A stretch of DNA of 64,000 bases, from positions 1 to 64,000 of the forward strand of contig JAUIKM010000025.1 in assembly GCA_030430495.1 (NCBI GenBank), in the 5' to 3' direction. The notes beneath the pieces were generated by a model. The model was not told the DNA's origin and made no database searches. It saw only the letters and a list, made by a program, of their open reading frames with translations. Positions within the stretch are counted from its first letter, which is position 1, and the number at the start of each line of letters is the position of its first letter. This DNA comes from a bacterium. GTDB lineage: Bacteria > Bacteroidota > Ignavibacteria > Kapaibacteriales > UBA7675. Shown here one piece after another: positions 9,819 through 62,009 of this stretch. Both the position numbers and the translations under genes were made by a program.

Positions 9819-11384
9819 ATGGCATTGCTTCCGGTTCTGCTTCTGCCGCTGTTGGGCGCTGTTGCGCTTATGTTCGTTGACCGCACCGCGGTCAAGGGCA
9901 TTAAGATGACGGCCCTGATATTCTCCATTCTGACCTTTATCGCTTCGCTGGCGGCCTTCCTGGGCTTCGACCACGGTTCGGGCGATTTTCAGTACCTGGT
10001 CGACTGGACCTGGATTACCTCGCTCGACGCGGGTTTCCGCATCGGCGCGGACGGCATGGCCATCCTGCTTGTCATGCTGACAACAGTGATTATGCCCGTA
10101 GCCATCCTGACGTCCTTCTCGTCGATCAAGAAAAGCGAGAAGCTGTATTACGTCATGCTGATGCTCTTGCAGTTCGGCATGACGGGTGTGTTTCTTGCGC
10201 TGGACACCTTCCTGTTCTACGTGTTCTGGGAGGTGATCCTGATTCCGATGTACTTCATCATCGGCATCTGGGGCGGTCAGAACCGCATTTACGCGTCGAT
10301 CAAGTTTTTCCTCTACACCATGTTCGGTTCGCTGCTGATGCTGATCGCCATTATCTGGCTCGGTTTTCACGGCGATCCCTCGGGCGGAGGATTTACGGCA
10401 AACCTGCTGACGCTGCGCGACGTGGGGCCTTCGATCCCGATGGAAACCCAGCAATGGCTGTTCCTGGCTTTTGCTTTGTCTTTTGCGATCAAAGTGCCGC
10501 TGTTTCCGCTGCACACCTGGCTGCCCGACGCTCACGTGCAGGCGCCGACGGCCGGCTCGGTCATTCTGGCCGGCGTGCTGCTGAAGCTTGGAACCTACGG
10601 TCTGATCCGCTTCAACCTCGAGCTTTTTCCACAGGCGTCGTATTACTTTGCCGATGCGATGTGCGTGTTGGCGGTGATCGGCGTGATTTACGGCGCGCTC
10701 GTGGCCATGGTCCAGACCGACATCAAAAAACTCGTGGCCTACTCCTCGGTCTCGCACATGGGATTCATTGTCCTCGGGATTTTCTCGATGACAACCGCGG
10801 GACTGCAGGGCGCGATCATTCAAATGGTCAACCACGGCCTTTCCACGGGCATGCTCTTCCTCTGCGTCGGAGCGCTGTACGAGCGTCGTCACACGCGTGA
10901 AATTGAGGACTACGGCGGCGTTATGGCGCGCATGCCGCGCTTCGGCGTCATCTTCGGCATCGCCATGCTGGCTTCTGTCGGTCTGCCCGGCCTGAACGGC
11001 TTTGTGGGCGAGTTCCTGACGCTGCTCGGCGCCTACAACGCGCCGGCGCTGGACGGCAACGTCTGGTACACGGTCTTTGCGGCTTCCGGCGTTATCCTGG
11101 CGGCGGTCTACCTGCTGAAGATGTACAACGGCGTCATGTTCGGCCCGATCAACAACACAAAAAACGAAAGCCTGACCGATATGACGCGCAGCGAAGCCTG
11201 GCAGCTCGTGCCGCTCGCCGCGCTCTGTTTCTGGATCGGCCTGTTCCCGAATACTTTCCTGGATTACTCCAAAGCTTCAACCGAACAACTGGTTGAGAAG
11301 GTGGAATCCTTCCTCCCGGGCGGCTCCGGTTACGCGATGGAAGCGGCGGAATCAACGACGGCAGGAACGTCCGACGATCATTAA
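9819..11384 (+). CDS. nuoM: NADH-quinone oxidoreductase subunit M
   Basis: FWEVILIPMYFIIGIWGG, KVPLFPLHTWLPDAHVQAPTAGSVILAGVLLKLGTYGLIRF, KKLVAYSSVSHMGF. Confidence 0.98.
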   Translation: MALLPVLLLPLLGAVALMFVDRTAVKGIKMTALIFSILTFIASLAAFLGFDHGSGDFQYLVDWTWITSLDAGFRIGADGMAILLVMLTTVIMPVAILTSFSSIKKSEKLYYVMLMLLQFGMTGVFLALDTFLFYVFWEVILIPMYFIIGIWGGQNRIYASIKFFLYTMFGSLLMLIAIIWLGFHGDPSGGGFTANLLTLRDVGPSIPMETQQWLFLAFALSFAIKVPLFPLHTWLPDAHVQAPTAGSVILAGVLLKLGTYGLIRFNLELFPQASYYFADAMCVLAVIGVIYGALVAMVQTDIKKLVAYSSVSHMGFIVLGIFSMTTAGLQGAIIQMVNHGLSTGMLFLCVGALYERRHTREIEDYGGVMARMPRFGVIFGIAMLASVGLPGLNGFVGEFLTLLGAYNAPALDGNVWYTVFAASGVILAAVYLLKMYNGVMFGPINNTKNESLTDMTRSEAWQLVPLAALCFWIGLFPNTFLDYSKASTEQLVEKVESFLPGGSGYAMEAAESTTAGTSDDH

Positions 11385-12887: not shown

Positions 12888-12945
12888 GAGCTGTTCCGGC
12901 TTCTTTTGGCTGATTTTTTTGTTTGTCAGCGGGTTTAAAGTTTGA

Positions 12946-12981
12946 AATGGGACGTTCCCTGAGGGGGCGTCCCATTTTTTT
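12946..12981 (+). terminator. Intrinsic terminator downstream of nuoN
   Basis: ATGGGACG-(ttccctgaggggg)-CGTCCCAT followed by TTTTTTT. Confidence 0.9.
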
Positions 12982-13003
12982 GTCCTGCGTAGAAATACGT
13001 AGT

Positions 13004-13030
13004 AGTTGTGAGCCCTAAGGGCTCACAACT
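13004..13030. other. Perfect 12-bp stem / 3-nt loop hairpin between convergent nuoN and thioesterase
   Basis: AGTTGTGAGCCC-TAA-GGGCTCACAACT, no U tract on either strand. Confidence 0.8.
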
Positions 13031-13163
13031 CAAAAAACTCGCGTGCCAAAAATCTGATGTTCTCTGTGGAGCGCTGAACGGCAAGTTTTCAGCTTTAAGC
13101 GTGGAGCCAGTCAGAAGCGATCGAATCGTTGATCCCGAAGTCCAGTCGTTGAGCCGCCGCCGC

Positions 13164-19665: not shown

Positions 19666-19763
19666 GGTTCGGGAATTGGTTGAGGTCAAAGTGGCTTTAT
19701 TGGAAGTGTGTGGGCTTTGCTGCGGTTGTATCGGATGTGTTCCGGCTCAGGTGAGATTGCTGC

Positions 19764-19946
19764 GGAATGGTATCGTGATAGCGGAGAAAAGGGGAATGGT
19801 ATCGTGATAGCAGAAAAAAGGGGAATGGTATCGTGATAGCGGAGAAAAGCGGAATGGCTTGGGGATAGCAGAAAAAAGGGGAATGGTATCGTGATAGCGG
19901 AGAAAAGGGGAATGGCATCGGGATAGCGGAGAAATTGGCGGAATGG
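19764..19946. repeat. 29-bp tandem repeat (about 6 copies plus partial)
   Basis: GGAATGGTATCGTGATAGCGGAGAAAAGG units starting at 19764, 19793, 19822, 19851, 19880, 19909 (exact 29-bp spacing) and a degenerate unit at 19940. Confidence 0.95.
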
Positions 19947-20022
19947 TTGAGTAAGATTTTGTGTGGCCGGGTGTTAACATGTTGATTTATAAGGGTTTAT
20001 GGCGTCGATGTTGCGGTCTGGA

Positions 20023-20262
20023 CGCACTTCCGGCTAGATCCGGGGCCCGCCCCGCCGCCACCTCGGGAAGCTCCACCACGTTCCAACGCACTCCTCCCAC
20101 CCTGCATCAGTGCAAGTTTTCTTGAGTAAGCCGGTCGCGGATTTCACGCGCCGCATGCTGCGCGCTCGTCACAACAAGCTTACAGACTTTGCCGCCGTTT
20201 TTCCAGCGCAAAAAATTGAACGTAGCGAATCTTGCGACTGAACGGGCGGCCTTTCACGGTGA
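20023..20262. repeat. Intergenic repeat copy A (partner at 48187-48447)
   Basis: Shared blocks CGCACTTC..GCTAGATC.GGGG.C, CACTCCTCCCACCCTGCA, GAGTAAG.CG.TCGCG, CGCGCCGCATGCTGCGCG..GTC...CACAA, CTGAACGGGCG. Confidence 0.8.
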
Positions 20263-20742
20263 ACGGAACAGTGTTGTTCTGCGGAAGCGTTCGCCCAGCC
20301 TCTTGCACGGCAATTGTCACTTCGGTGGGGCACAGCGGATGCTACCGGATTAAATTGTGGTCCGCGTCGCGCGGGACCCGACGTCTCATTTTCAGTTCGC
20401 AAATATTCCGTGTTTGCCGGCGGTATCACCGCAGATCACCATAGTGGTTCCGAGCCGGAAGACATCCCCCCAAAGCATTTTTCACCGCCTTTTCAGACCG
20501 CTTTGAGCGCTTCGCTGCGCTTGCACTCAGGCTCGCTTGATTTTCTTGCTCGTCATCGCGCCCGGAGTCCAAAATCCGTGAGTCTGCCATCATCCACTGA
20601 ATTACAGAGATAGTTGCTTAGGCAACTAATTTTACGCCGTCCAACGCTCCCCGCGGCTCCGGGGTCGAGTGTAAGATTTCTTTGGTTTTCTCCCTGTCAA
20701 ATGCTATCTTGGCAAGCTTAGCGAAATTTGAACGAGGAGCAT

Positions 20743-21186: not shown

Positions 21187-22638
21187 ATGCAAACTTCGGA
21201 AAAACCTCTGGCCGGCCTCAGAATTCTGCTCGGCGTCACCGCCAGCATCGCCGCCTACAAAACGCCGCAAATGATTCGCGATCTGCAACGCGCCGGAGCC
21301 GAAATCCGCGTGGCAATGACGGACTCCGCCGAACAATTTGTCGCTCCCCTCGCGCTGGTTAACGTCTCCCGCCACGACGTCGCCCTCGACATGTTCGCCC
21401 TCGACGCCCAGAGCGGCGGCTCCTGGCACATCCACCTGGCGCACTGGTGCGACCTGATGTTGATCGCGCCCTGTTCCGCTACAACTCTGGCACGCATCGC
21501 CGGCGGTTTTGCCGACAATGCCGTATCTGCACTTGCATTGGCCCTCCCTGAAAAAAGGCCGCTTTTGTTAGCCCCCGCGATGGATGCCGATATGTGGCAG
21601 GCCCGTGCCACGCAGCGCAATGTTAAACTGTTAAGCGACGATGGTGTGAAGTTTATCGGCCCGGAAGGCGGCGAACTCGCCAGCGGGCTCTCCGGCCACG
21701 GCCGCCTCGCCGCCCTCGAAACGATAATCTCCGAACTTGAACAATTTCATCCCGTCGCCCCGCGCGACGTTAAACAGCCTCAAACCCCGGCGTCCACGCC
21801 TTCGGAGTCACAAGCCGCTCAGCCCGAGCGCGACATCGTCGCCGAGGCCCTGGCGCGTCCGACCTTCCCGCTGGAAGATGCCGCCGCCGCCGATCGCATG
21901 ACCGCCGAACTCGAATTCGAAAAAATGAAAAAATCCGGCGGCCTCGCGCCCGTGGCGCAGCACGAGAGCCTGCGCGGTGTTAACATCGTTGTCAGCGCCG
22001 GACCCACGCGCGAGAAAATCGACGATGTGCGCTATTTAACAAATCACTCCAGCGGCAAGATGGGCTACGCGCTCGCCGCAGTCGCCGCCGCGCGCGGCGC
22101 AACCGTCACGCTCGTCTCCGGCCCGACGAACCTCGACACGCCGGACAATGTGCGCCGCGTCGACGTTGAGTCCGCCGCCGACATGTTTAATGCCGTCATG
22201 GCCGAACACGGGCACGCCGACGTCTGTATCATGTCCGCCGCCGTCGCCGACTTCACGCCGCAGCAGCAGAGCGAAGGTAAAATCAAGAAAACCGACATCG
22301 ACGGCAATCTCAAGCTCGAACTCAGCCGCACGCAGGACATCCTCGCCGCCCTCGGCGAACACAAACGTCCCGGACAACTCGTTGTCGGTTTTGCACTCGA
22401 AGCCAAAGACGCACTCGCAAACGCCCAGTCCAAACTCGAATGCAAAAACGCCGACATGATAGTTTTGAACGAGTTAAACAAATCACAGTCCGGCTTCGGC
22501 GGCGATGACAACACAATCACGCTCATCCGCAAAGGCAAAGAGCCGCAGAGTTTTCCGCCCGCGAGCAAAGTCGCATGTGCCGAAGTGATCCTGGATGCGG
22601 TGGGAGAGATGCGGGGTCTCGATAAAAACAACAAATAG
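21187..22638 (+). CDS. coaBC: Bifunctional phosphopantothenoylcysteine decarboxylase / phosphopantothenate-cysteine ligase
   Basis: LAGLRILLGVTASIAAYKTPQMIRDLQRAGAEIRVAMTDSAEQFVAPLAL, LLLAPAMDADMW, VVSAGPTREKIDDVRYLTNHSSGKMGYALA, ADMIVLNELNKSQSGFGGDDN. Confidence 0.98.
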   Translation: MQTSEKPLAGLRILLGVTASIAAYKTPQMIRDLQRAGAEIRVAMTDSAEQFVAPLALVNVSRHDVALDMFALDAQSGGSWHIHLAHWCDLMLIAPCSATTLARIAGGFADNAVSALALALPEKRPLLLAPAMDADMWQARATQRNVKLLSDDGVKFIGPEGGELASGLSGHGRLAALETIISELEQFHPVAPRDVKQPQTPASTPSESQAAQPERDIVAEALARPTFPLEDAAAADRMTAELEFEKMKKSGGLAPVAQHESLRGVNIVVSAGPTREKIDDVRYLTNHSSGKMGYALAAVAAARGATVTLVSGPTNLDTPDNVRRVDVESAADMFNAVMAEHGHADVCIMSAAVADFTPQQQSEGKIKKTDIDGNLKLELSRTQDILAALGEHKRPGQLVVGFALEAKDALANAQSKLECKNADMIVLNELNKSQSGFGGDDNTITLIRKGKEPQSFPPASKVACAEVILDAVGEMRGLDKNNK

Positions 22639-22723
22639 TCTTTGTGTTAAAATGGCGCTTCATGTGTTGAATGCGCCGAAATCGCTGTCGAACCCTGACC
22701 CTATGGTGAGGATCAACTCATAT

Positions 22724-24370
22724 TCAGCCATTCGCATGTGTTAGTGCATTTGCACTGAACACCCCGTCTCCATCCTTCACATCTTCGACATACGCCGCCC
22801 TTAAACTCTGTCGCTTTAGTCGAGCCTGCACCCATAAAAGCACCTCACTTAGTCCCACCGGCATTGACTGCCGCGTCCCCGCGCGCGCCAGTGTACGACA
22901 GAAGTCTGCGAGTTCCACGTATGCACCTCTGTGTGATTCCTCCGTTTTATTGAGTAGTGTTTTAAGCATCTGGACGACCTGTTGTTCAAAGTCGTGATAG
23001 GCCGAGTGTTTGCGCAGGTAACGCGATGTTGCTCGGAATTGCGCCTCCAGTAACTCGGTCTCGCCGAGTTCAAAGTAGAGCAGCAGGCGGAAAATGTGCG
23101 CAAACTCCTGGATGTCGCGTTTGGACTCCACCGTGCGAGAGTTGACTATCTCGTTTAACATCTCCAGCGCCAGGCCGCAGTCGCCCCCGACAAAACTCAT
23201 GACCGCGCAATTGTAGCAAATCGTTAATGCGCGGCTGTCGCGGATGCCCTTGCGCACGCTCCCCAGGTTTTGCTGAATCTCCCGCACAATTTCCATGCCC
23301 CTGTCGATCAGGCCGCAGTTCAGGGCCTGTGTCAACTCCAGAAATAGAATGCTGCCGACGTAATAGGTCTTGTCTCCTGACTGTTTAAGCGAGAGCTCTT
23401 TCAGGCTGTTAAGCATCGGCGTAAAATTGGAAAAGTGGCCGACGGCGATGCAGCAGTTCAGAAACTGGTCGAGCGTGCGTTTGTATTGCGCCGGGTAAAT
23501 TTGTTGCATCGCCGCATTCTCGCGCCAGATTTCAAGCGCTTTGTCGAAGGCCCTGTGCGCCGAAACGTAGTCGCCCAGCATCAACTGCAGCGAAGCGCGT
23601 ATCTCGAGTTGTTGCAGGCGGTTGCCCTTGCAGCGCGCCGAAGAGTCGTCGCGCACCAACTCGTGTTCGAGCAGTTGTTCTATCTCTTGCTGCCGTTCTG
23701 TTTGGCGCGTGCGGGCATGGCGACGCCGCAGCAGCTGCGCCGCACTCAGCAGCTGTTCGTATGCGATGTTCTGTTGCTGGTCAAGTAGAGTCGTTGCGGA
23801 TTGTTTAAACAGCGCCGCAATTGTCTCCTCGGTTTTTGCTCCGGGGCAGTCGTGCTGTAGGCGACGCTCCCAGGCCGGCAGGTCGAGCAGAATGCTGTGC
23901 TGTTCATAGAGTGCGGCTTTGGCGCGCGCGCGTTTGATGACCTTTAAACAATGCGCAAACATACCGCGCCGGTACAGCACGGTGATGTGCGCCAGTTGAC
24001 GGTGCAGCTCGCCCACGACCGTGCCGTCGTGATCGTGGCGCGCCAGACTGTCCAGCACCAGGTTCAGCAGTTGGTATTTCAATGCCGAGAGATAAGCCGC
24101 AAACGACTCGTTGCGCACCGCATGCGCCAGCGCGGCGGCGTTAAAGCTGTCGAGCTTGTCGTAGGCTGCGAATAGTTTAACCGTGTGGTTCTTTGATTTG
24201 CCCTGATAGCTGCGCGCAAAAATGTTGAAGTGGCGCTTCTCCGCGCGACTCATGCCTTTGACCAGTTGGAACAGCAAATCCTGAGTTTGCACGCCTGGTG
24301 TCTCCGTATGTTGTAGCAAACGCCCGTGACGCAGCACGGCGCATCGCAGCTTGGTTTTGATACGGAACAA
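22724..24370 (-). CDS. Helical-repeat (TPR-like) protein of unknown function
   Basis: Alpha-helical Leu/Ala-rich repeats over 548 aa; SRYLRK...MLKTLLNK segment resembles the 55859-57406 protein. Confidence 0.7.
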   Translation of the reverse strand: MFRIKTKLRCAVLRHGRLLQHTETPGVQTQDLLFQLVKGMSRAEKRHFNIFARSYQGKSKNHTVKLFAAYDKLDSFNAAALAHAVRNESFAAYLSALKYQLLNLVLDSLARHDHDGTVVGELHRQLAHITVLYRRGMFAHCLKVIKRARAKAALYEQHSILLDLPAWERRLQHDCPGAKTEETIAALFKQSATTLLDQQQNIAYEQLLSAAQLLRRRHARTRQTERQQEIEQLLEHELVRDDSSARCKGNRLQQLEIRASLQLMLGDYVSAHRAFDKALEIWRENAAMQQIYPAQYKRTLDQFLNCCIAVGHFSNFTPMLNSLKELSLKQSGDKTYYVGSILFLELTQALNCGLIDRGMEIVREIQQNLGSVRKGIRDSRALTICYNCAVMSFVGGDCGLALEMLNEIVNSRTVESKRDIQEFAHIFRLLLYFELGETELLEAQFRATSRYLRKHSAYHDFEQQVVQMLKTLLNKTEESHRGAYVELADFCRTLARAGTRQSMPVGLSEVLLWVQARLKRQSLRAAYVEDVKDGDGVFSANALTHANG

Positions 24371-24588
24371 ACTAAAAAATTTAGTTGAATCACAGAGTGT
24401 ATGCCTCTAACTCGTTGACAAACAAGAGAATAAGCCGAGATATCCGCTCTGCCGTCGCAGCCAAAAAAACTATATTTCACGAAATGCTGCACGTGTTCCG
24501 GCGCGCTGCGCCCTGGATTGCCTTCGACGACAAACAACTACGTCGCCGCAAGGGCGGCAGGAACTTCAACACAGCCCGGAGACTGGAT

Positions 24589-25017
24589 ATGCTGCGTTTT
24601 GGAATTGTCAGCGACACAGGATTCACACGCGTTGGTTCGCCGGAAACACTCGAGTTGACGATGAGTTATCTGGCGGTGAAAAATGCGCAGGGCGCAGTTG
24701 AATCGTTCCGGATTAACATGAACGTCATCACCGGTGAGCAGGGCGCCGTACCTCTTTGCGGCGCAGGCGGCATCAATGTTTCGATCGATGCTTCGCCGGT
24801 TCTGACCGGCGCGCAGTCGACCAATCTTGCGCCGAATCACGAAAACGACATCAATATTAAACAGGTGTTCTGGGACCTTGATCTGACGATCCAGGTCGAG
24901 CAGGGGACGCCCGGTGAGTATTCGCTGATCGTAACCGGACCCGTCGTTTATAACTGGATTCTCGGCGAGGTCGATCTCGATCCGAGCGCCTTGCCCTCGG
25001 TGAATGTTAAAAGATAA
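24589..25017 (+). CDS. Hypothetical protein
   Basis: MLRFGIVSDTGFTRVGSPETLELTMSYLAVKNAQGAVESF... coding-like ORF; conservative start inside ORF 24385-25017. Confidence 0.6.
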   Translation: MLRFGIVSDTGFTRVGSPETLELTMSYLAVKNAQGAVESFRINMNVITGEQGAVPLCGAGGINVSIDASPVLTGAQSTNLAPNHENDINIKQVFWDLDLTIQVEQGTPGEYSLIVTGPVVYNWILGEVDLDPSALPSVNVKR

Positions 25018-25201
25018 TCGAACTTAACCAACGGCGCACCGATGCGGTCGCCGGCAATACACGATGTTCACATTTCACCGCGGCCGGGTGGAGTGCGGGC
25101 GTACCTGACCCTGGCGAACCTCATACGCCGTGAACTCCGGCGAACCAGGTTCTCCACATTCCATCGATACACTCACTTTAAACCTACACAAAGGTGTTAA
25201 C

Positions 25202-25489
25202 ATGGCTTTTCAATCTGGAACGACAAATCAAGACGACTGGCGTCAATACAGCAACAACACTATTATGGTGCAGGCGGATTTTGCACCGGGATTCCAGGGT
25301 GACGCCCCCGCGGCTGTTGCCAATCTCATGTGCGATTCACAGCCCCAGCCGCCTACCAGCGGCGTGCGTATCCTGAATCTCAGCCATTCGCTTTTTATGG
25401 CCCTGGTTCAACTGGCTGACGGCAGCGACCTTGACGTCAATGAGGCTAAAGCCTACAACTGGCGCATAAGCTGGATGGCGGCCAACTGA
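25202..25489 (+). CDS. Hypothetical protein
   Basis: MAFQSGTTNQDDWRQYSNNTIMVQADFAPGFQGDAPAAVANLMC...; followed by a terminator hairpin. Confidence 0.6.
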   Translation: MAFQSGTTNQDDWRQYSNNTIMVQADFAPGFQGDAPAAVANLMCDSQPQPPTSGVRILNLSHSLFMALVQLADGSDLDVNEAKAYNWRISWMAAN

Positions 25490-25537
25490 CCGCCCCTGTG
25501 CGGATTACGTGAGTTTTACTCTGCGATTAACACAGGC

Positions 25538-25575
25538 AAAAAAAGCCCGCCGTCACAAGACGGTGGGCTTCGCTG
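25538..25575. terminator. Bidirectional terminator hairpin
   Basis: AAAAAAAGCCCGCCGTC-ACAA-GACGGTGGGCTT. Confidence 0.75.
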
Positions 25576-25622
25576 TTTGTATCTGTTTTAAAGTGACTTG
25601 CAGGCTGATTAAACAACTGCCG

Positions 25623-25713
25623 CAGCCTGCCCGCTCTCCAGCGACTCCACCGCCGCGAACGTCGCTTCCGTCTCCGCGTGCAAAGTTTTGTAGCCGATTG
25701 AAAACTCGCCGCC
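25623..25713 (-). pseudogene. Detached 3'-terminal fragment of the bi-domain oxidoreductase gene (full copy at 29030-31171)
   Basis: 91 bp ungapped match to 29044-29134 with only 2 mismatches (hand-aligned): CAGCCTGCCCGCTCTCCAGCGACTCCACCGCCGCGAACGTCGCTTCCGT. Confidence 0.92.
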
Positions 25714-25780
25714 CTGGCCATCACAATACAAGGTGCAGGGAAGGGAGCCGCACAGTTTGTCGGTTCAGAGCGGGTGTGTG

Positions 25781-28045
25781 TTAACGCAGGAACGCGACTG
25801 AAATTACGGATACGCTATTCTTGCGTGCAATGCGAATAATGTATCTGCCGCTGGAAAAATTCCTGAGGTCTATCTCCACTGGTTGGCCTGGAGAAGAAGT
25901 TTGTTCAAGAACTTTGAGCCCGAGTAGCGAAAATACCTGTATCGTGGACGGGAGGCTCGATACTCCGTGCAAAACAAAAAGGCCGTTGTCAGGCGAGCGC
26001 AGCTCAAGCCGGTCTGAATCTGGTGCAACTGTGATGTCTGATGCGACTTCTCCTATCGTGTTAACAACCGTATTCGTGATGACGGGCCTGTTTAAATCGA
26101 AATAAATTGCAGCGCGGTTGTGTATTTGTGTGCCCAACGGCAACGACTCCTGCAAGTCGAGTTTATACTTCACCATGCCATGGCTGCCTGGCTCATCCTC
26201 GTCTTTGCCGGGCAGCTCGATTCCCGCAAAACGAAATTCCAGAACATTGTCGTTCAGAACGTTGACGGTGTAGTCGTGGGACGCCGCGCCGAAGTGGATT
26301 GTGTTAACATTCAGATTGCCGTCCAGCGTGTCCCGGATGACCACGTCGCGTGCGGGCGCGTTTCCGATATTCTGAAAGCGAATCGTATAGGACAGTGTTG
26401 GATGTTTCTGTTGCAGGATTAAACCTTGATCGCCGAAGCCGCGCGGCGCCACGCTGATATCGTTCGGGTCGTAGGACGCCGTTATCTCCGTGCATGTTTT
26501 ATCCCGTCGGTCCTGTGCAAGGATTTCTACATCATCTTCTGCGACGTAGAACTCTGCGCATACTTCCTCTCCGCGCAACGCCTCATCCGGCGGGACGACT
26601 GCTGTAACCTGGAAATGCCGCGTTGATCCTACCGGCATATCGACCAGGTCCCACGCGGCGGTAAACTCGGAACTGCGGTCGGCCTGTGGGATGGTTTCAA
26701 GGTTTAACAGATTGAATGGCACGACCTGGAAATTGAGCGTGCCGGTAAACGGAAGCGTACCTTTGTTTACGCAGCTCAAATAGTAGGTCATTTTCAGTCC
26801 TGACCGGGCCGCCGTGGATGTAATGCTCAGCTCCACATGCTCAAAGAGCGATGTCGGTGCAATGCCGAAATCCAGGCTGCCGGTGATTTCGCCGGACTCC
26901 TGTATGTGTATTTCACGTCCCGCGTCGTCGCAGCTGTTTTTCCAGGGCCAATCGACATCCTGGTGTGCTGTGTACGCGCCCGGAGGCAGGGAAGTCGTGA
27001 ATCCGCCGTCCGGCCCGCTGACAGCCCAAAATCCGGAGGGCTCGAAGCGGACGATTCGGGAGCCGACCGCCATTTCATTTTCCTGGCGGTCGCAGCTTTC
27101 ATTCAGGTCTGCATACACCTGTCCTTCAAAGCCGATCTCGGTTTCGGCGGCGTTGTAACAACATCCGTTGAGGTTAAAGCGGTCTTTGCTTTCGGGCACC
27201 AGCCAGGCTTCGGGCTGTTCGATATGGGCCAGCAACAAGCCGCTTTCCGTTCCAATGCAATAGAGCTGCAGATTATTGCAGAAACTTTCCGTACACGGGC
27301 GGAAGGTCAGGTCGTCCGTGCCGCTGAATTCTTTCTTCAGGGCCTCCAGCGGCCCTTCGAGCGGGTCGACGCTGACCAGCCAGAATGAATTGAGGGCATT
27401 CCTGGTGTCGTGACGCGATGCATACATGAGCCCGTCATGCGGATTAAACACCAGGCCTCCAATGACAACCTGGAGCTTGAGCAGATTCAGTAGCTCGTGG
27501 CTGTTAATGTCATAGACCCTGTAGTCGCTGCCTGGATTATAGAGGTACAAACCGCGTTTGTTATCCAAGACGGATCCGCAAACATTGTATCCCTCCGTGG
27601 TGTTTTCCAGGTTAAAATGCTGGTTTTGCACGGTGTTGGGGTCGATGACTTGCAGACAGGCATAACCCCTCAGGTCGATAGCGTAATAGCGGTCGCTTGT
27701 CGGGTTGTATTCCAGCTCGCCGGCGTGTTTAACATCGAGTTTCGTGAAGTCCGCCAGAGATCCGTCAATGAGATTGAGTCTCATCAAATATTGATTGTCG
27801 ACAATAAACGAATAGTGATTGCGCCGGACGTCGATAGCCGCATTGGATATGCGTGCATCTTCCGCAATATCTACGTCCGGGTTCAAAATGACGAACTCGC
27901 CGGTTTCGAGGTCAACATAACCGAAGCGCGCCGTTGCGCCGGAGCGTTCCAATCCGTAATAGGAGCTTTCCTGAGCGCTTGCGCCGGTGTGGACCAATAA
28001 GAGCGAGCAGAAAAAGGCGAGGCCGAAGATCGTGGAAATTTTCAT
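25781..28045 (-). CDS. Secreted protein with DUF11-like/conserved-repeat domain and T9SS C-terminal sorting domain
   Basis: Signal peptide MKISTIFGLAFFCSLLLVHTGASAQ; ASYDPNDISVAPRG...LSYTIRFQNIGNAPARDVVIRDTLDGNLNVNTIHFGAASHDY...NRAAIYFDLNRPVITNTVVNTI; C-term FSLLGLKVLEQ..FSSGRYIIRIA. Confidence 0.88.
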   Translation of the reverse strand: MKISTIFGLAFFCSLLLVHTGASAQESSYYGLERSGATARFGYVDLETGEFVILNPDVDIAEDARISNAAIDVRRNHYSFIVDNQYLMRLNLIDGSLADFTKLDVKHAGELEYNPTSDRYYAIDLRGYACLQVIDPNTVQNQHFNLENTTEGYNVCGSVLDNKRGLYLYNPGSDYRVYDINSHELLNLLKLQVVIGGLVFNPHDGLMYASRHDTRNALNSFWLVSVDPLEGPLEALKKEFSGTDDLTFRPCTESFCNNLQLYCIGTESGLLLAHIEQPEAWLVPESKDRFNLNGCCYNAAETEIGFEGQVYADLNESCDRQENEMAVGSRIVRFEPSGFWAVSGPDGGFTTSLPPGAYTAHQDVDWPWKNSCDDAGREIHIQESGEITGSLDFGIAPTSLFEHVELSITSTAARSGLKMTYYLSCVNKGTLPFTGTLNFQVVPFNLLNLETIPQADRSSEFTAAWDLVDMPVGSTRHFQVTAVVPPDEALRGEEVCAEFYVAEDDVEILAQDRRDKTCTEITASYDPNDISVAPRGFGDQGLILQQKHPTLSYTIRFQNIGNAPARDVVIRDTLDGNLNVNTIHFGAASHDYTVNVLNDNVLEFRFAGIELPGKDEDEPGSHGMVKYKLDLQESLPLGTQIHNRAAIYFDLNRPVITNTVVNTIGEVASDITVAPDSDRLELRSPDNGLFVLHGVSSLPSTIQVFSLLGLKVLEQTSSPGQPVEIDLRNFSSGRYIIRIARKNSVSVISVAFLR

Positions 28046-28476
28046 GGAGCAGTCTCTGTCAACAGCCGTAGGCACAACGGTCGGACAGACCGCAAGCCGG
28101 AACTCGCGCCCTGCCGTCGAAAGCCGGGTTTTCGCATGGGTGCGTTGATATACCGCTGTAAGTATACTGAGGTTTAGTGAAATCGGCAGCCGGGATTGCC
28201 ATTACGTCCGCAAAGACCCTATCTACGAATTTTGGTTACAAGTTTATATCAAATTGCGTTCGTGCTTGTGAATCCCACACCTGTTGTCAGGCGTTCGAGC
28301 AAACGGTTCAAGTCGCCTTTTTTGTCGGTCCGGCGCGATTCTGTGCACAATCTGCCTGTTTTGCTGCGTTTTAGGTGACGCATGTATTGAGCTGCCCAGG
28401 CTTAAAAATACTCGAATAAAACCGCGATTGCCCGGTGATGTAAAGACATTGCAGCGCCTGCCCGCGCCTGCGGCTT

Positions 28477-28511
28477 TTCAGGCTCGCTTTTTGATTTTTT
28501 TGTTTGGCATC
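28477..28511. repeat. Dispersed short intergenic repeat (TCAGGCTCgCTTgATTTTcTTG family)
   Basis: Related to 20526-20555 (CTCAGGCTCGCTTGATTTTCTTGCTCGTCA) and 53130-53159 (CTCAGGCTCCTTGATTTTCTTGCTGGTC). Confidence 0.6.
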
Positions 28512-28723
28512 GAGTGTCGTGCGATGAGCCCGTGACGCTTCCAAAACCGCAATGTCGGTTTCACGCCTGGAACTCGTGCCGATGCGACTGTGATTGAAGC
28601 CGGCGGCGGTTAACTGATGTTGAAAAGTCCGCAAGATTCTCCCGCTGGCTTGTCTGGTTGAAAGTCTGGGTCCGGTGATGAGCTTTCAACCGCGAGTCGC
28701 GAGTCCGCCACCGAACGGCGTTG

Positions 28724-28849
28724 AAAACGCCGACATGATCGCGCTGAAAGAGTTAAACAAATCACAAGCCGGTTTCGGCGGCGACGACAACACAATTGCG
28801 TTCGTTCGCAAAGGCCAAGAGCCGCAGAGTTTTCCGCCTGTGAGCAAAA
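28724..28849 (+). pseudogene. 3'-terminal fragment of coaBC (full copy at 21187-22638)
   Basis: Encodes ENADMIALKELNKSQAGFGGDDNTIAFVRKGQEPQSFPPVSK, versus coaBC KNADMIVLNELNKSQSGFGGDDNTITLIRKGKEPQSFPPASK; about 126 bp aligned to 22445-22570 with about 18 mismatches, no gaps. Confidence 0.92.
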
Positions 28850-29029
28850 AAGAATGTATCAATAATAATGCCATCAACATTAGCAGTCGAATGAAGTGAG
28901 TGCCAAGTGTATGAGTCCTGTTGTTGAGTCCAAAAAAAAGAAAACCCGCGGTGCCAACCCGCAGGCTCTACTGTTTAAGTCGCATCAGGAATGGGCTTGG
29001 AAAAGTCTTGTATCCAGCGGCGAAGCCAT

Positions 29030-31171
29030 CTACCCCAAACTCACAGCCTGCCCGCTCTCCAGCGACTCCACCGCCGCGAACGTCGCTTCCGTCACCGCGT
29101 GCAAAGTTTTGTAGCCGATTGGAAACTCGCCGCCATGTTTAAGTGCGCCGATCATCGCCGCGATCTCCTGCGCGTGGCCCTTGCCGCCGTCAAACGACAA
29201 GTCATTGCGTTTGGCGCCCCACAGCAGGTTTAAAGTCTTGAAGTTGTCCATGATCGCGCTGCGGCCCTCGCCGTGCGCCTCCAGGTATTCCTTGCCGAGA
29301 CTTTTAGCGCCGTTCGCAAAGTAATGCACCGTGCCGATCGATCCGTCGCCGAACTGCACGGAGATCGAGACCACGTCCTGCAGATGCAGGTTGGCCGCCG
29401 CGCTGCGCACGCTCACCGCGTGCACGCCCACGGGATCCGCGTCCGCCAGAAAAGCCATCGTGTCGATAAAGTGGCAGGCCTCGCCGATGATGCGGCCGCC
29501 CTGCGCCGGGTCCTGCGTCCAGTGCGTCGCCGGAATGGCTCCCGCGTTGACGCGGTAACTCATCGCCAGCGGCTCCTGGCGGCCGCTGAAAAATTCCTTC
29601 ATTTTAAGCAGGGGCGGCGAGAAACGGCGGTTAAATCCGACGAGCAGACGGCCCCCGCTTTCCCGATAAGCCGCGTCGACCTGTTTTAACTCTTCGCGCG
29701 TCAGCGCCAGCGGTTTTTCAACAAAGACGTCTTTGCCCGCGTTCAGCGCGGCCGTCACGTACTCGGCGTGTGTGTCGTGGCGCGTGGCACAGGCCACGAG
29801 TTTAATGTTGTTGGTGTTAAGGAGTTGTTTAAAGTCCGTCGTGAATTCGCGGAAGCCGAAGTTCTCAGCCACCGAGCGCACGCGCACCGGCGTCGCGCCC
29901 GCCAGCATCGTGAAGTCGATCGACTCGTTGCGCATGTGCGGCAGCAGATGTGTCTGCGCAAATGCGCCCGCGCCGACGAATCCCATGCCGATTTTGCCGG
30001 CGTGCACCGCGCCTTTGCGCTGCGGCGCGACCGTCACCGACATCGTTTCCCTGCGTTCCGGATACTCCAGCACGATGCCCAGGTAGGGCTCCTTGCCGCG
30101 ACCCATGATTAAATCGTAGGCTTTGGCCGCGTCGTTGATCGCGATGCGATGTGTTGTTAACATCTGCATGTCGATCGCGCCGGAAGCGATCAGGTCCAGG
30201 AAAGCCTGCATGTTGCGCTGTTCCGTCCAGCGCACGTATTCGTAGGGATAGTCGTGGCCGTGTTCTTCGTAGTTCGGGTCGTAGCGCCCCGGGCCGTAGC
30301 TGCAGGAGATTAACAACTCCTGCTCCTTTTCGTAAAAGGGCGAGCGCGGCACGTTCATGCCGACCGCGCCGACCACGACAACTTTGGCTTTGCGGCGCGC
30401 CATTTTGAGCGCTATCTCCAGCGGCTCGTTGCTCGACGTCGCCGCGGTGATTAACACGGCGTCGACGCCTTTGCCGCGCGAAAATCCGAGCACGCGCTGC
30501 ACGGCGTCGGGTGAGCTGATCGCCGTGGCGTCCGCGCCCAGTTTTTCAGCCAGTTCCAGCGCGTTTTTATCGATGTCCAGCCCGATGACGCGGCAGCCCG
30601 ACGCTTTTAACAACTGCACCGCAATTTGTCCCAGCAGGCCGAGGCCGATGACGGCCACGTTTTCGCCCAGGCGCAGGTCGGCCTGGCGCACGCCCTGCAT
30701 GGCGATTGCGCCCAGCGTGGTGTAGGCCGCGTCTTCAAAACTGACGCCTTCCGGAATCGGCGCGGCCAGGTTGGCCGGCACGGCGTTTAACTCGGCGTGG
30801 TAGGCACAGGCGCTGCCGGCGCAGGCCACGCGGTCGCCCACGTTGAACTGCGGCGTGCCGGACTGCACAACTTCGCCCGCCGTGCTGTAACCCAGCGGAC
30901 GGTAGGCGTTTAAAGCGTTCATGACCTTGCGGTAGGTGGCGACGATGCCGTCTTTGCGCAGGCTGTCCAGCACGGTTTTAACATCGTCTTTCTGTGAGCG
31001 CGCTCGTGCGATCAGCGACTTTTCGGCTTTGGCGACCGAGCTGCGTTCCGTGCCGGCGGAGATGAGTGAATTGTGCACTCGCACGAGGATGCCGCCCGGC
31101 GGGCACAGCGGCCCCGGCAGTTCTTCCACGAGGACTTCGCCGCTGTTCTGGTGTTGAAAAACCTGAAGCAT
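29030..31171 (-). CDS. Bi-domain oxidoreductase: zinc-type alcohol dehydrogenase-like domain fused to Gfo/Idh/MocA domain
   Basis: N-term LVRVHNSLISAGTERS, GYSTAGEVV, VAVIGLGLLGQIAVQLLKASGCRVIGLD; C-term MGFVGAGAFAQTHLLPHM, VFVEKPLALTREE, VGFNRRFSP. Confidence 0.93.
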   Translation of the reverse strand: MLQVFQHQNSGEVLVEELPGPLCPPGGILVRVHNSLISAGTERSSVAKAEKSLIARARSQKDDVKTVLDSLRKDGIVATYRKVMNALNAYRPLGYSTAGEVVQSGTPQFNVGDRVACAGSACAYHAELNAVPANLAAPIPEGVSFEDAAYTTLGAIAMQGVRQADLRLGENVAVIGLGLLGQIAVQLLKASGCRVIGLDIDKNALELAEKLGADATAISSPDAVQRVLGFSRGKGVDAVLITAATSSNEPLEIALKMARRKAKVVVVGAVGMNVPRSPFYEKEQELLISCSYGPGRYDPNYEEHGHDYPYEYVRWTEQRNMQAFLDLIASGAIDMQMLTTHRIAINDAAKAYDLIMGRGKEPYLGIVLEYPERRETMSVTVAPQRKGAVHAGKIGMGFVGAGAFAQTHLLPHMRNESIDFTMLAGATPVRVRSVAENFGFREFTTDFKQLLNTNNIKLVACATRHDTHAEYVTAALNAGKDVFVEKPLALTREELKQVDAAYRESGGRLLVGFNRRFSPPLLKMKEFFSGRQEPLAMSYRVNAGAIPATHWTQDPAQGGRIIGEACHFIDTMAFLADADPVGVHAVSVRSAAANLHLQDVVSISVQFGDGSIGTVHYFANGAKSLGKEYLEAHGEGRSAIMDNFKTLNLLWGAKRNDLSFDGGKGHAQEIAAMIGALKHGGEFPIGYKTLHAVTEATFAAVESLESGQAVSLG

Positions 31172-47747: not shown

Positions 47748-47821
47748 TCCGGGCGGTGGTAGCGCGTTGCAGGGCGACAGTTCCGCTGCCGCCTGCCGTT
47801 TGTGGGCGAGATGACAGACTC

Positions 47822-47994
47822 CACGTGCCGAGTACCGGATTCGGCTTGGAGTATGCGGGTTCCACGTGCCGAGTACCGGATTCGGCTTGGAGTTTGCGGA
47901 TTTCACGTGCCGAGTACCGGATTCGGCTTGGAGTATGCGGGTTCCACGTGCCGAGTACCGGATTCGGCTTGCAGCTTGCGGGTTCCACGTGCCG
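47822..47994. repeat. 41-bp tandem repeat (4 full copies plus partial)
   Basis: CACGTGCCGAGTACCGGATTCGGCTTGGAGTATGCGGGTTC units at 47822, 47863, 47904, 47945, partial 47986; exact 41-bp spacing. Confidence 0.96.
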
Positions 47995-48186
47995 TTCGAA
48001 GGAGGGAACGACGCGTTCAGCGACGGAATCCGGTTTGTCAGCAGTCGGGAGCGTGAGTTGGAAGAACTGGTGAAAGGTTGAGGTGCGGCGGAGAAAACGA
48101 GCCTGAAGTGAAAGATGTGGTGAGTCGTAAGTTGTTGCCAGTCAATGAGTTGTGGGTGGCGTGGGTGTCTGTCGGTCCGAAAGGGG

Positions 48187-48447
48187 CGCACTTCTCGCTA
48201 GATCAGGGGGCCACCCCGCCGCCGCCGCGGGACTTTCCACCGCGCACAAAACACACTCCTCCCACCCTGCAATTTTTGCAAGTAATTTTTGTGAGTAAGT
48301 CGTTCGCGCTGGAAACGCGCCGCATGCTGCGCGTTGTCTGTCACAAGCATAAATAATGGCGGGCAACTCACCATGGCGAAAAAACTGAACGGCGCCCGCC
48401 ACGTGCTTAAACGCGCTGATTTTGTGCCTGAACGGGCGAAGTTTTAG
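48187..48447. repeat. Intergenic repeat copy B (partner at 20023-20262)
   Basis: See copy A; homologous blocks in the same order and orientation. Confidence 0.8.
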
Positions 48448-52616: not shown

Positions 52617-53418
52617 GCGAAGTACTTTCCCACGACACTTTTCCACGTTTTTCGCCGCGTTTAAGGGTGAAAAGCGCCCGTTCAGTCTTTTCCGCTTGAT
52701 CCGTTGCCTGAGTTGCCGCATGTTGCCTGTGTCGAATCTTCCGGAGGTTTGACCGCGCCATGCCCTGACGTCGGCGCAGCGGCTGTACAATGCGGTCGTT
52801 GCGCCTGGAACCCGAAGAAGGTGAATTTGCCGGGACAGGGAAGGGGCTGTTTTGACTCGCGGTTGTTTAACTGGATTTGTCGCTGTTGGATTTTGTGGCT
52901 GTTTTGACCTGGCGACTCGGTACTCGTCGGGCGGTGAGATCTGCAACTGTTTAACTGCGTGGTCTGTAGTTGCTGCTTTCCCGGGACTCGCGCGATTGGA
53001 GCTCGTTTTGCACCTTGGACTCGCGTGGATGGCTTAATATCTTTCAACCGACTTTAAACTTCGCGCTCGATTACTTGTGGCTGCTTACTTCTGCAACTGC
53101 CGCAGATCGCTTTGAGCCGCCTCCGGCGTCTCAGGCTCCTTGATTTTCTTGCTGGTCTTCGGGTTCGAAGTCTCGAGCCTCCGCGTTTTTACGTCTTTTT
53201 GTCTTCAAGCCCCAAACCACCGAGCTGCAAGTCTGTCTCCAAACGCGTCAACTTTCCGGCGCGACGTCCGCCGCAGGGCCCGCGGCTCCAAACGCCGTGA
53301 CAAACAAAAGGAACAAACAAGCCGCCCGGCATTCGTGCCGGAGGCGAAGTGCTCTGCTCAGAAAATGCTTCGGATACAGACCACCGTTGACTGCCTGAAC
53401 ACGCCCGTCCGGCCAAAC

Positions 53419-55830
53419 TCAGTAGCGGTACAGCACCAGCCGCGCCCAGCGCAAAGGATGCGCCAGACGTTCCTGATCGATGAATTTCCGGCGCAGACTC
53501 TGAAGTCCGACGGCTGTACCCGAAGGACGTTCCGCCGCGTGTGCAAACGCCTGCAGAAACTCAAACGAAAACGAGGTGGATGCGGTCCACAGCGAAAAAG
53601 CCGTGTATCCGTGCTCGCGCGTGCAGGTATTGCTCAGCATCGCCGCCGCCGAGACTGCGTCCACCAGCTCGCCGTTGCGCAGGTCGCAGTAGGGCAGAAC
53701 CAAAATGTCCGCGGCGGGGGAGTGTCGGGAAAATTGACAGAGAGGCAGGAATCCGCTGCTGTCGCTGTTGTCGGGAGCCACAAGCAGGCCCGAATATTCG
53801 GGAGCGCCGGGGCAGTAATTCAGATGGGTCAGCCAGGCGGCAAGAGAAACGCTCTTGTCCTGCTGTTGTGCAAGCTGTTCGCGGCTCGCGTCGCAGTTGA
53901 TGAACTCGGAGAAGTCTGTGTCATCTTCCTCCAGCTGGTCGCGCAGCGCTTGGAGCTCGCGCTCCGTGTAGCGCAGCGGATAAATCTCTCCGGCCGAATT
54001 GAACATGTGCAGACGGGCGTGTTTGCCGAATTTCGCCGTCAACTGCTGCCGGCGCGCCTCGGCAGAAATTCCATCGCAGTCGGTCGGCTCTTCGATCAGA
54101 GGGGCGGCCAGCATCGCGCCGCCGCGCCCGTCGCCGGCCTGTTCTTCCCGCATCAGATCTGCCGCGCAATACGCGTATTCCACGCTGAGGTGCCGCGACG
54201 TGTAGTCGTAGCGCGTGAAATCACCCGGTTTGCCGCGTCGTACGTCAGCCCGCGCCGCCAGGGCCTCAAACGGAATCGAAAAAAGCGTTGAATCGGGCGA
54301 AACCACCAGATGCCGCATGAACGTGTTTTCGGCCCGCAGGTGCTGGGCCAGCAGCGACTGAAACAGGAATCGCAGTGCGTCGGGCAGATCGTCCGAGCGG
54401 CCGGTGCGCATCGATTCGTAGGCCGTGAGGATGTTGTCCCTCAGCTTCTGCGTCACGCGGCTGCGGTGCAGCGAGAACTCGCCCCGGAAAAATCGCGCGG
54501 TATAGAGCTGCTGCTCGCAGATGCTGTAGTGCAGAAAAAGCGTGCTGTCGGCCAGGGACTTTAAAACAGCGCTAATTGAAGGGGGTGTTTTCCGGGAGAA
54601 AATTCTGGCGTACCGCGGCGACTGCTGCAGTTCGTCCTGCGCCCGGTCCCATTTTTGTTGCAGGTCGGCATCGATAGTGCCGTTGGGGGAACCAAATGCC
54701 GCCCGGCTGACCTCGACAGCGCTTTTCTGCCATGTTTGTACCGCCTGGGCGAGCAGCCGCTGCTCCGAGAGCGGCATGGTCAACATCGCTCCGCGCCAGA
54801 AGTTGAATTGCTTGCGCAGTTCCGCAATCCGGAAGACCTCGTGTGCGTGCTCCTCCAAACCCGTTTCCTGAAAAGCCATGTAAGAAGCGCCCAGAGCGCG
54901 CACAAACAGAATATTGCCCAGTTCCTGCAGCAGTGGAAACAGGGCCGTGCCGTGAACGCTGCGGCGCAGGTCCTCAAAGTGCGTCAGGGCGCGGCGGTAC
55001 AGGTGATCGGCGCGCAGCAAATTGCGGACGTCATGGGTTTCGCGGTAAAACAGGGACAGGTGCAGCTCCGCTTCCAGGCAGAGCGCTTCGGTGTACTGAA
55101 GACGATCCGCCGGATGTGACGGAAGCGGCTTTTTGTCCGACGCGGGCGTCGGCTCAAGCAGGTCGCGCGGGTTTTCAATGCTGTCCGTGCGGAACCAGGC
55201 GGTTACCTGACGCAGGTGACCCAGCGCGGCGTCATGCGCTTTCAGCTCCAGTTCCTGCTTGGCGGCCAGCAGATGCAGACGTCGTTTTTCGTACGTGACG
55301 GAGCGGTCGTCGGCGCTCAGCCGCAGCATAGTGTTGAACTGTTTGCGGGCTTCTTCGGGTTTGCCGGCATCGCGATACAACACGGCGCGCGCCAGCGAAA
55401 CAGTATTGTACGCCTCGTCGTTTTGCCCGGCCGGCCAGGCGGCAAGTCGTTTGTCCAGAATGTCCGCGGCGCGGCTGGATTCACCCAGCCAGGCGGCCAT
55501 GCCGGTGTACAAAAGGTCCGTTTTCCAGTCGGTTTCGATGTTTTGAGCGGAGTGTTGCGACAGGAGCTCGTGCGCCTCGGCGCGCCTGTCGGCCGCCGCC
55601 AGTTCCGGCAGTTTGTCTGCGTCCTTCGCCGTGTTGTTTACCTGCCTCGCAGCCGTTTCGACGATCAGCGATGGCGGCGTGTAGTCGAACACCGTGCGGT
55701 AGGACTGGACGTAGATCAGGTCCATCTGCGCTCCGGCGGGCCGGACGAATGCAAACTGCAGGACAAACAAAAAGGCAAGGGCCGCCGGCAGGCGATGCAA
55801 GATCATACGAGGCAGATTCATTTGCGTGAA
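53419..55830 (-). CDS. Exported TPR-CHAT domain protein (caspase-like fold)
   Basis: N-terminal signal peptide MILHRLPAALAFLFVLQFAFVRPAGAQ; helical repeats; C-term MRHLVVSPDSTLFSIPFEALAAR, AAWLTHLNYCPGAPEYSGLLVAPDN, ADILVLPYCDLRNGELVDAVSAAAMLSNTCTREHGYTAFSLWTAS. Exact start among several Met codons uncertain (ORF to 55851). Confidence 0.8.
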   Translation of the reverse strand, partial: FTQMNLPRMILHRLPAALAFLFVLQFAFVRPAGAQMDLIYVQSYRTVFDYTPPSLIVETAARQVNNTAKDADKLPELAAADRRAEAHELLSQHSAQNIETDWKTDLLYTGMAAWLGESSRAADILDKRLAAWPAGQNDEAYNTVSLARAVLYRDAGKPEEARKQFNTMLRLSADDRSVTYEKRRLHLLAAKQELELKAHDAALGHLRQVTAWFRTDSIENPRDLLEPTPASDKKPLPSHPADRLQYTEALCLEAELHLSLFYRETHDVRNLLRADHLYRRALTHFEDLRRSVHGTALFPLLQELGNILFVRALGASYMAFQETGLEEHAHEVFRIAELRKQFNFWRGAMLTMPLSEQRLLAQAVQTWQKSAVEVSRAAFGSPNGTIDADLQQKWDRAQDELQQSPRYARIFSRKTPPSISAVLKSLADSTLFLHYSICEQQLYTARFFRGEFSLHRSRVTQKLRDNILTAYESMRTGRSDDLPDALRFLFQSLLAQHLRAENTFMRHLVVSPDSTLFSIPFEALAARADVRRGKPGDFTRYDYTSRHLSVEYAYCAADLMREEQAGDGRGGAMLAAPLIEEPTDCDGISAEARRQQLTAKFGKHARLHMFNSAGEIYPLRYTERELQALRDQLEEDDTDFSEFINCDASREQLAQQQDKSVSLAAWLTHLNYCPGAPEYSGLLVAPDNSDSSGFLPLCQFSRHSPAADILVLPYCDLRNGELVDAVSAAAMLSNTCTREHGYTAFSLWTASTSFSFEFLQAFAHAAERPSGTAVGLQSLRRKFIDQERLAHPLRWARLVLYRY

Positions 55831-60838: not shown

Positions 60839-62009
60839 ATCAACAGCTGCATTTTCCCCGCTTTTTCTGATGACTCTGGCTGCATTCTTTTGTTTGTCAG
60901 CGGGGTGGACGCCGGCAGGTGCACAGTCGGCCCGCAGTCTGGTGCAGGAAGGCAATCAGGAATACAGCAGCGGCAATTTCCAGACGGCCGAGACCCGTTA
61001 CCGCGCCGCGCTGGCCGCGGACTCGCTGCAACCCTCGCCGATTTCCGCTTTTAACCTGGGCGATGCGCTCTTTAAACAGGAGCGCTACAACGAAGCCATC
61101 GAACAATTTGCCGGCGTGGCTGCCGATGCGGACATGGCCGACGATCAGCGTGCCGCCGCCTGGCACAACCAGGGCAACGCCTGGGCCGCACTCGAAGATT
61201 ATCCCAAGGCCATCAATGCCTATAAACAGGCTCTGCGCCTGAACCCTCGCGACTTTGATACTAAACATAACCTGGCCTGGGCTCAGGAAAAACTGCGCGA
61301 ACAACAGCAACAAAGCGACCAGAACCAGAAGCAAAACGGCGATCAGCAACAAGACGGTCAGAACCAGCAAAACGGCGATCAGCAACAAGACGGTCAGAAC
61401 CAGCAAAACGGCGATCAGCAACAAAACGGTCAGAACCAGCAAAACGGCGATCAGCAACAAAACGGTCAGAACCAGCAAAACGGCGATCAGCAACAAGACG
61501 GTCAGAACCAGCAAAACGGCGATCAGCAACAAGACGGTCAGAACCAGCAAAACGGCGACCAGCAACAAGACGGTCAGAACCAGCAAAACGGCGACCAGCA
61601 ACAAGATGGTCAGAACCAGCAAAACGGCGATCAGCAACAAAACGGTCAGAACCAGCAAAACGGCGATCAGCAGCAGAACGGTGAAGACGGCAAAGGAATG
61701 AAAGATGCCAACAACAACGGCATCGACGACGAGCTGGAGAATCAAAAAGGCGAGCAGCAGAGTGAACAGTCGGGCGAAGAAGGCCCGGACAAAAATGGCC
61801 CCGACAAAAATGGCAATGGCGCGGCCGCAGGTCAGGGACAGGACGGTCAGGATGACGCCGAGCAACGCGACGCCCAGGGACGCGTCATAACTATTTCACG
61901 TGAAGACGCACTCCGCATGCTGCAAGCCCTGCAACAACAGGAACAGGCGCTGCAGCAACAACTGCGGCGGCGCACAGGCAAAGCGCGCAAAACGGAGAAA
62001 GACTGGTAA
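60828..62009 (+). CDS. BatC-like TPR protein with Gln/Asn-rich 12-aa repeat tract
   Basis: Signal peptide MSTKSTAAFSPLFLMTLAAFFCLSAGWTPAGA, TPR segments (AFNLGDALFKQERYNEAIEQF, WAALEDYPKAINAYKQALRLNP), overlaps upstream VWA gene by 11 bp. Confidence 0.93.
   Translation: MSTKSTAAFSPLFLMTLAAFFCLSAGWTPAGAQSARSLVQEGNQEYSSGNFQTAETRYRAALAADSLQPSPISAFNLGDALFKQERYNEAIEQFAGVAADADMADDQRAAAWHNQGNAWAALEDYPKAINAYKQALRLNPRDFDTKHNLAWAQEKLREQQQQSDQNQKQNGDQQQDGQNQQNGDQQQDGQNQQNGDQQQNGQNQQNGDQQQNGQNQQNGDQQQDGQNQQNGDQQQDGQNQQNGDQQQDGQNQQNGDQQQDGQNQQNGDQQQNGQNQQNGDQQQNGEDGKGMKDANNNGIDDELENQKGEQQSEQSGEEGPDKNGPDKNGNGAAAGQGQDGQDDAEQRDAQGRVITISREDALRMLQALQQQEQALQQQLRRRTGKARKTEKDW
61335..61682 (+). repeat. 36-bp in-frame coding tandem repeat, 9 copies plus partial
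   Basis: AACGGCGATCAGCAACAAGACGGTCAGAACCAGCAA = NGDQQQ(D/N)GQNQQ. Confidence 0.97.

Follow-up and report, generated by a model that had tools for sequence, protein, structure and literature searches.

Partial copies of coaBC and a convergent oxidoreductase gene beside accessory genes in a Kapaibacteriales genome

Horizontal-transfer hotspots without mobile elements, set between core genes that recombine, are commonly found (Oliveira et al. 2017, PMC5635113). At lacZ of Escherichia coli, circles with incomplete homology produced gene-end duplications of 109-950 bp upon a single crossover (PMC3240628). The locus described here lies within a 64-kb stretch (positions 1 to 64,000 of contig JAUIKM010000025.1; "the window", whose numbering is used throughout) and has features of both. 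Like the hotspots of Oliveira et al. (2017), it has conserved core flanks, a content that varies from relative to relative and no integrase, in a comparison of only three genomes; unlike those hotspots, it has kept a duplicated gene-end scar. As in the lacZ integrations, which leave direct duplications of ~100-950 bp, duplicated gene ends surround inserted DNA, whereas here there are two convergent genes, the slices have decayed and no vector is identifiable. The locus also resembles a tandem duplication that spans a gene end and has then eroded, such as the one at C58:139.8-140.3 kb of the same genome, in that the outer genes are intact and the partial copies sit in the middle, and differs from it in that unrelated genes now separate the copies. 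The scar is thus of a common, known type. It can be read as a record of a housekeeping-gene insertion spot gaining cargo without a mobile element, and several such scars, if datable across related strains, would tell which of two routes prevails, import by single crossover or plain duplication.

Layout of the locus and extent of the two partial copies

From left to right the locus consists of full coaBC, island A, a slice of an oxidoreductase gene, island B, a slice of coaBC and the full oxidoreductase gene. Full coaBC (21187..22638, plus strand) encodes a 483-aa CoaBC_dfp protein (NCBIfam TIGR00521, E = 1.9e-118; Pfam DFP and Flavoprotein). The full oxidoreductase gene (29030..31171, minus strand) encodes a 713-aa bi-domain protein of the zinc-dehydrogenase/GFO-IDH-MocA type (Pfam ADH_zinc_N and GFO_IDH_MocA), and a terminator-like hairpin lies downstream of it (28941..28969, minus strand). 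Island A holds three reading frames. A1 (22724..24370, minus strand) is a remote relative of the BT_2802 family with a weak TPR signal (NCBIfam NF058569, E = 4e-38, below the cutoff). A2 (24385..25017, plus strand) matched no family, and the homologue search found no counterpart in 20 relatives. A3 (25130..25489, plus strand), an open reading frame that the codon model did not call, was likewise without a family match. Island B consists of one gene (25781..28075, minus strand; start codon likely the ATG at 28045) for a T9SS-sorted protein with DUF7619 (Pfam PF24595, E = 2e-42; Por_Secre_tail, E = 8e-5; TIGR04183, E = 3e-5). A terminator-like hairpin with a 12-bp stem (25543..25570) lies downstream of both B and the oxidoreductase slice on the minus strand. 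We considered an atypical composition of A and B and rejected it, since their GC content is low yet inside the genome range (12th-20th percentile). Searches with Pfam and NCBIfam recognised no recombinase or transposase in A or B, and no RNA family or tRNA target turned up at the locus with Rfam and ARAGORN.

A1 belongs to a large paralogous family, with 16 matches here and 48 in one relative (G002). Members of this family are often divergent from small proteins without an assigned family or adjacent to a recurring set of genes of ~136, 196 and 390-480 aa (L226, L235 and C64:80-84.4 kb); the family and the gene set possibly form an accessory module.

Self-BLAST of the window aligned coaBC positions 22445-22569 with 28724-28848 at 86.4% identity (17 mismatches, ungapped, E = 5e-36). 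A repeat search of the window extended this slice to 134 bp (28724..28857, plus strand; parent segment 22445..22578, plus strand) at 84% identity with 21 mismatches; it covers codons ~421-464 of 483, and its frame stays open to a stop at 28899. The second slice (25623..25716, minus strand) is a 94-bp copy of oxidoreductase positions 29044-29137 (minus strand; 96.8% identity, 3 mismatches, E = 3e-38, self-BLAST) and corresponds to the codons for residues ~680-711 of 713. Both matches were far above the chance level of the window self-comparison, and the 5.6-Mb genome contains no better match to either slice. These searches bear out the two partial copies that a sequence-only reading of the window had claimed. 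That reading gave the oxidoreductase copy as 91 bp with 2 mismatches, which is correct for those 91 bp, but the full slice adds 3 bp and a third mismatch. It also described the copies as the 3' ends of the genes. Both slices do derive from near the 3' ends that face the junction and are oriented like their parents, but neither includes the actual gene end: between the last copied position and the stop codon of the parent there are 60-69 nt in coaBC and 14 nt in the oxidoreductase gene, and both slices are cut at both ends. The unequal divergence noted at the same time (98% versus ~86%) is statistically real, with 17 mismatches in 125 positions for the coaBC slice and 3 in 94 for the oxidoreductase slice (Fisher p = 0.0085).

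The junction in related genomes and partial gene copies elsewhere

Gene order around coaBC was compared among three genomes of the family, namely this one and two from other genera (G001 and G002). Both relatives have the same order, mutS-rpoZ-like-coaBC(+)…oxidoreductase(-)-acyltransferase-mraZ-mraW, and so carry the convergent coaBC 3'/oxidoreductase 3' arrangement that the sequence-only reading had proposed as ancestral. The gap between the two genes holds a MarR-like ORF of 155 aa in G001 and a secreted lipoprotein-like ORF of 389 aa in G002 (both named from the translation alone), so that, with A and B, each of the three genera has different genes there. Elsewhere in the order, in families other than this one, the two genes were far apart or on separate contigs where both could be placed. 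The shared order and the differing gap genes support, for the family as sampled, an ancestral convergent junction that has been used as an insertion spot.

Partial gene copies were surveyed over 1.91 Mb (34% of the genome), with genes called by a simple codon-model gene finder and intergenic DNA searched against nearby genes. At C63:104141-104371 and 106761-106991 a 231-bp duplication (87% identity) comprises the 3' end of a 164-aa gene and its flank, and the 2.4-kb insert between the copies contains a gene with a T9SS-like tail. At C71:40459-40557 and 54460-55392, an 88-bp 3' slice (77% identity) and its parent are 14 kb apart, and between them is a 3380-aa gene whose product has a T9SS-like tail. 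A tandem array at C58:139740-140330 consists of four ~119-bp units across a stop codon, which repeat the last 45-48 nt of the gene at C58:138446-139831. We also found 3' slices upstream of the parent gene (C17 and L232) and 5' slices (L230 and C63). As partial copies occur at several other loci, partial duplication is a recurring and ordinary process in this genome. Slices of both convergent neighbours were found at the window locus only, among the 1.91 Mb surveyed.

An exclusive bias of the slices toward 3' ends, apparent when 1.58 Mb had been covered, was abandoned when the laxer 1.91-Mb survey added the 5' slices and the upstream 3' slices. Three loci (the window, C63 and C71) have a slice from near a 3' end on the far side of an insert with a T9SS-type gene. 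It nevertheless seems very unlikely to us that this lineage repeatedly adds accessory genes, often T9SS-sorted cargo, at 3' ends by duplicative copying of the neighbour's 3' end. At the other copies of the A1 family no flanking pair of 3' slices was found, and one of them has a 5' slice of itself upstream.

Decay of the slices and origin of the scar

The slices were compared with 30 coaBC and 29 oxidoreductase sequences from relatives. In the coaBC slice, N>K and S>A replacements fall at positions invariant in 30 of 30 sequences, and a conserved V and T are also replaced. The oxidoreductase slice has three replacements (H>Q, P>S and V>E), which remove a proline found in 25 of 27 homologues and turn a conserved valine into glutamate. 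Because residues conserved in homologues have been lost, both slices are non-functional debris that decays without selection. Replacements per codon at family-conserved positions were similar in the two slices. Synonymous differences were absent from the oxidoreductase slice and numbered several in the coaBC slice, part of whose divergence is synonymous or family-compatible, which leaves room for divergence older than the event that made the scar. A homologous junction may have been imported from a relative, but this is unproven, because several slice residues occur in no functional homologue examined.

We consider it fairly probable that the scar arose by duplication of the junction in direct orientation at the conserved insertion spot, with A and B arriving with the duplication or after it. 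A segment reaching from inside coaBC to inside the oxidoreductase gene would have been duplicated, either as a plain tandem duplication with breakpoints within the two genes or by a single crossover that brought in a DNA circle bearing an incomplete junction copy; a circle crossing over within coaBC would give the same order and would place A in the left copy. Either route would keep the outer genes whole and put a 3' slice from both genes between them. Island A, which follows full coaBC, and island B, which separates the two slices, would have come in the same event or later and trimmed the slices, which would by now be neutral debris. The interlocked order X1-Y1-X2-Y2 would arise because the duplicated segment spans a convergent junction, and the order that marks a direct junction duplication (full X, Y slice, X slice, full Y, with every part oriented as in its parent) is the one present here. 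The order and orientation of the slices, with A in one place and B in the other, likewise uphold the earlier proposal of a duplicated junction whose copies are occupied by different genes. No homology between the two junction copies was recognisable beyond the slices, in places that A and B occupy or adjoin; hence the copies either were shortened when A and B went in or had no greater length from the outset. Look-alike terminators downstream were considered as residual homology and dismissed, as the flanks of unrelated genes reach that score in 59 of 430 cases.

A single duplication event, which we infer, predicts equal divergence of the slices and not the 17/125 against 3/94 observed, so that a later conversion of the oxidoreductase slice, a coaBC copy already diverged when imported, or two separate events must be added. 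If there were two events of different age, the older would have left the coaBC slice beside the oxidoreductase gene, and a later import would have left the 97% slice; in the import, strain DNA carrying coaBC-A-oxidoreductase would have recombined by homology in coaBC and by an illegitimate join in the oxidoreductase end. Such homology-facilitated illegitimate recombination is a known process (PMC3240628), and both the significant difference in divergence and the distribution of the synonymous differences agree with separate ages. The coaBC slice would still need an explanation of its own, however, and the similar replacement rate per family-conserved codon fits one age; we regard two events as unlikely, though to be taken seriously. 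Break repair that captured short patches from each neighbouring gene independently, by templated or double illegitimate insertion, would account for slices of 94 and 134 bp that are cut at both ends and have unrelated flanks, but patches of this kind would rarely share a near-3' origin, the parental orientation and the order of a duplication, which makes their independent capture distinctly improbable.

A full gene on one side and a 3' slice on the other is also the classic picture left by site-specific recombinases, which integrate elements at gene 3' ends, restore the gene and displace the old 3' end. Two such integrations would, however, give the order coaBC full-coaBC slice-oxidoreductase slice-oxidoreductase full, unlike the order observed; A and B carry no recombinase, the slices do not reach the stop codons, and neither a shared core nor an att-like site was seen at the slices. 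Site-specific integration at 3' ends is largely refuted, and we give it very little credence. A mixed-strain assembly artefact is given equally little credence: the source assembly is in 80 contigs (95.6% complete, 0.14% contamination), but the slices are bounded at both ends by unrelated sequence, invariant residues have been replaced, and the locus lies well inside an 87.9-kb contig. Direct duplication of the junction would explain the observed scar without new biology. A dedicated insertion mechanism using gene 3' ends, which the sequence-only reading had suggested, is unsupported, given that no recombinase or transposase was recognised, that the slices are cut at both ends and that partial duplications elsewhere in the genome include both 3' and 5' slices; it is also unneeded, because tandem duplication or single-crossover integration gives exactly these two 3' slices.

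Dispersed repeats and other observations in the window

Family R, a hairpin repeat that is dispersed and non-coding, is present as a half copy at 28446..28518, between B and the coaBC slice. We rejected it as the agent of the rearrangement, as the family has 124 matches in 1.58 Mb and its nearness is weak evidence. Further copies are at 20494-20569 and 53103-53172 in the window, and at L235:4545-4799 and 10211-10579 and L225:428-570 and 12896-13038 on other contigs. The core of the repeat resembles GACAAACAAAAGAAAAAGCAAGCC...GGCGAAGCGCTC, often present as paired ends, and some A1-type islands are bracketed by near-identical copies in direct orientation, 5-12 kb from one another.

Another dispersed repeat, also non-coding (77% identity), occupies 20020-20164 and 48184-48333 and has copies on several other contigs. 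Short intergenic tandem repeats are present at 19762-19946 and 47820-47994, and tandem repeats of ~72 bp lie within a 322-aa minus-strand ORF (61305-61682). Positions 1265-1618, in the 3' part of a 454-aa ORF, match the initial 354 bases of contig C64 at 92% identity, so that a repeat may break the assembly there.
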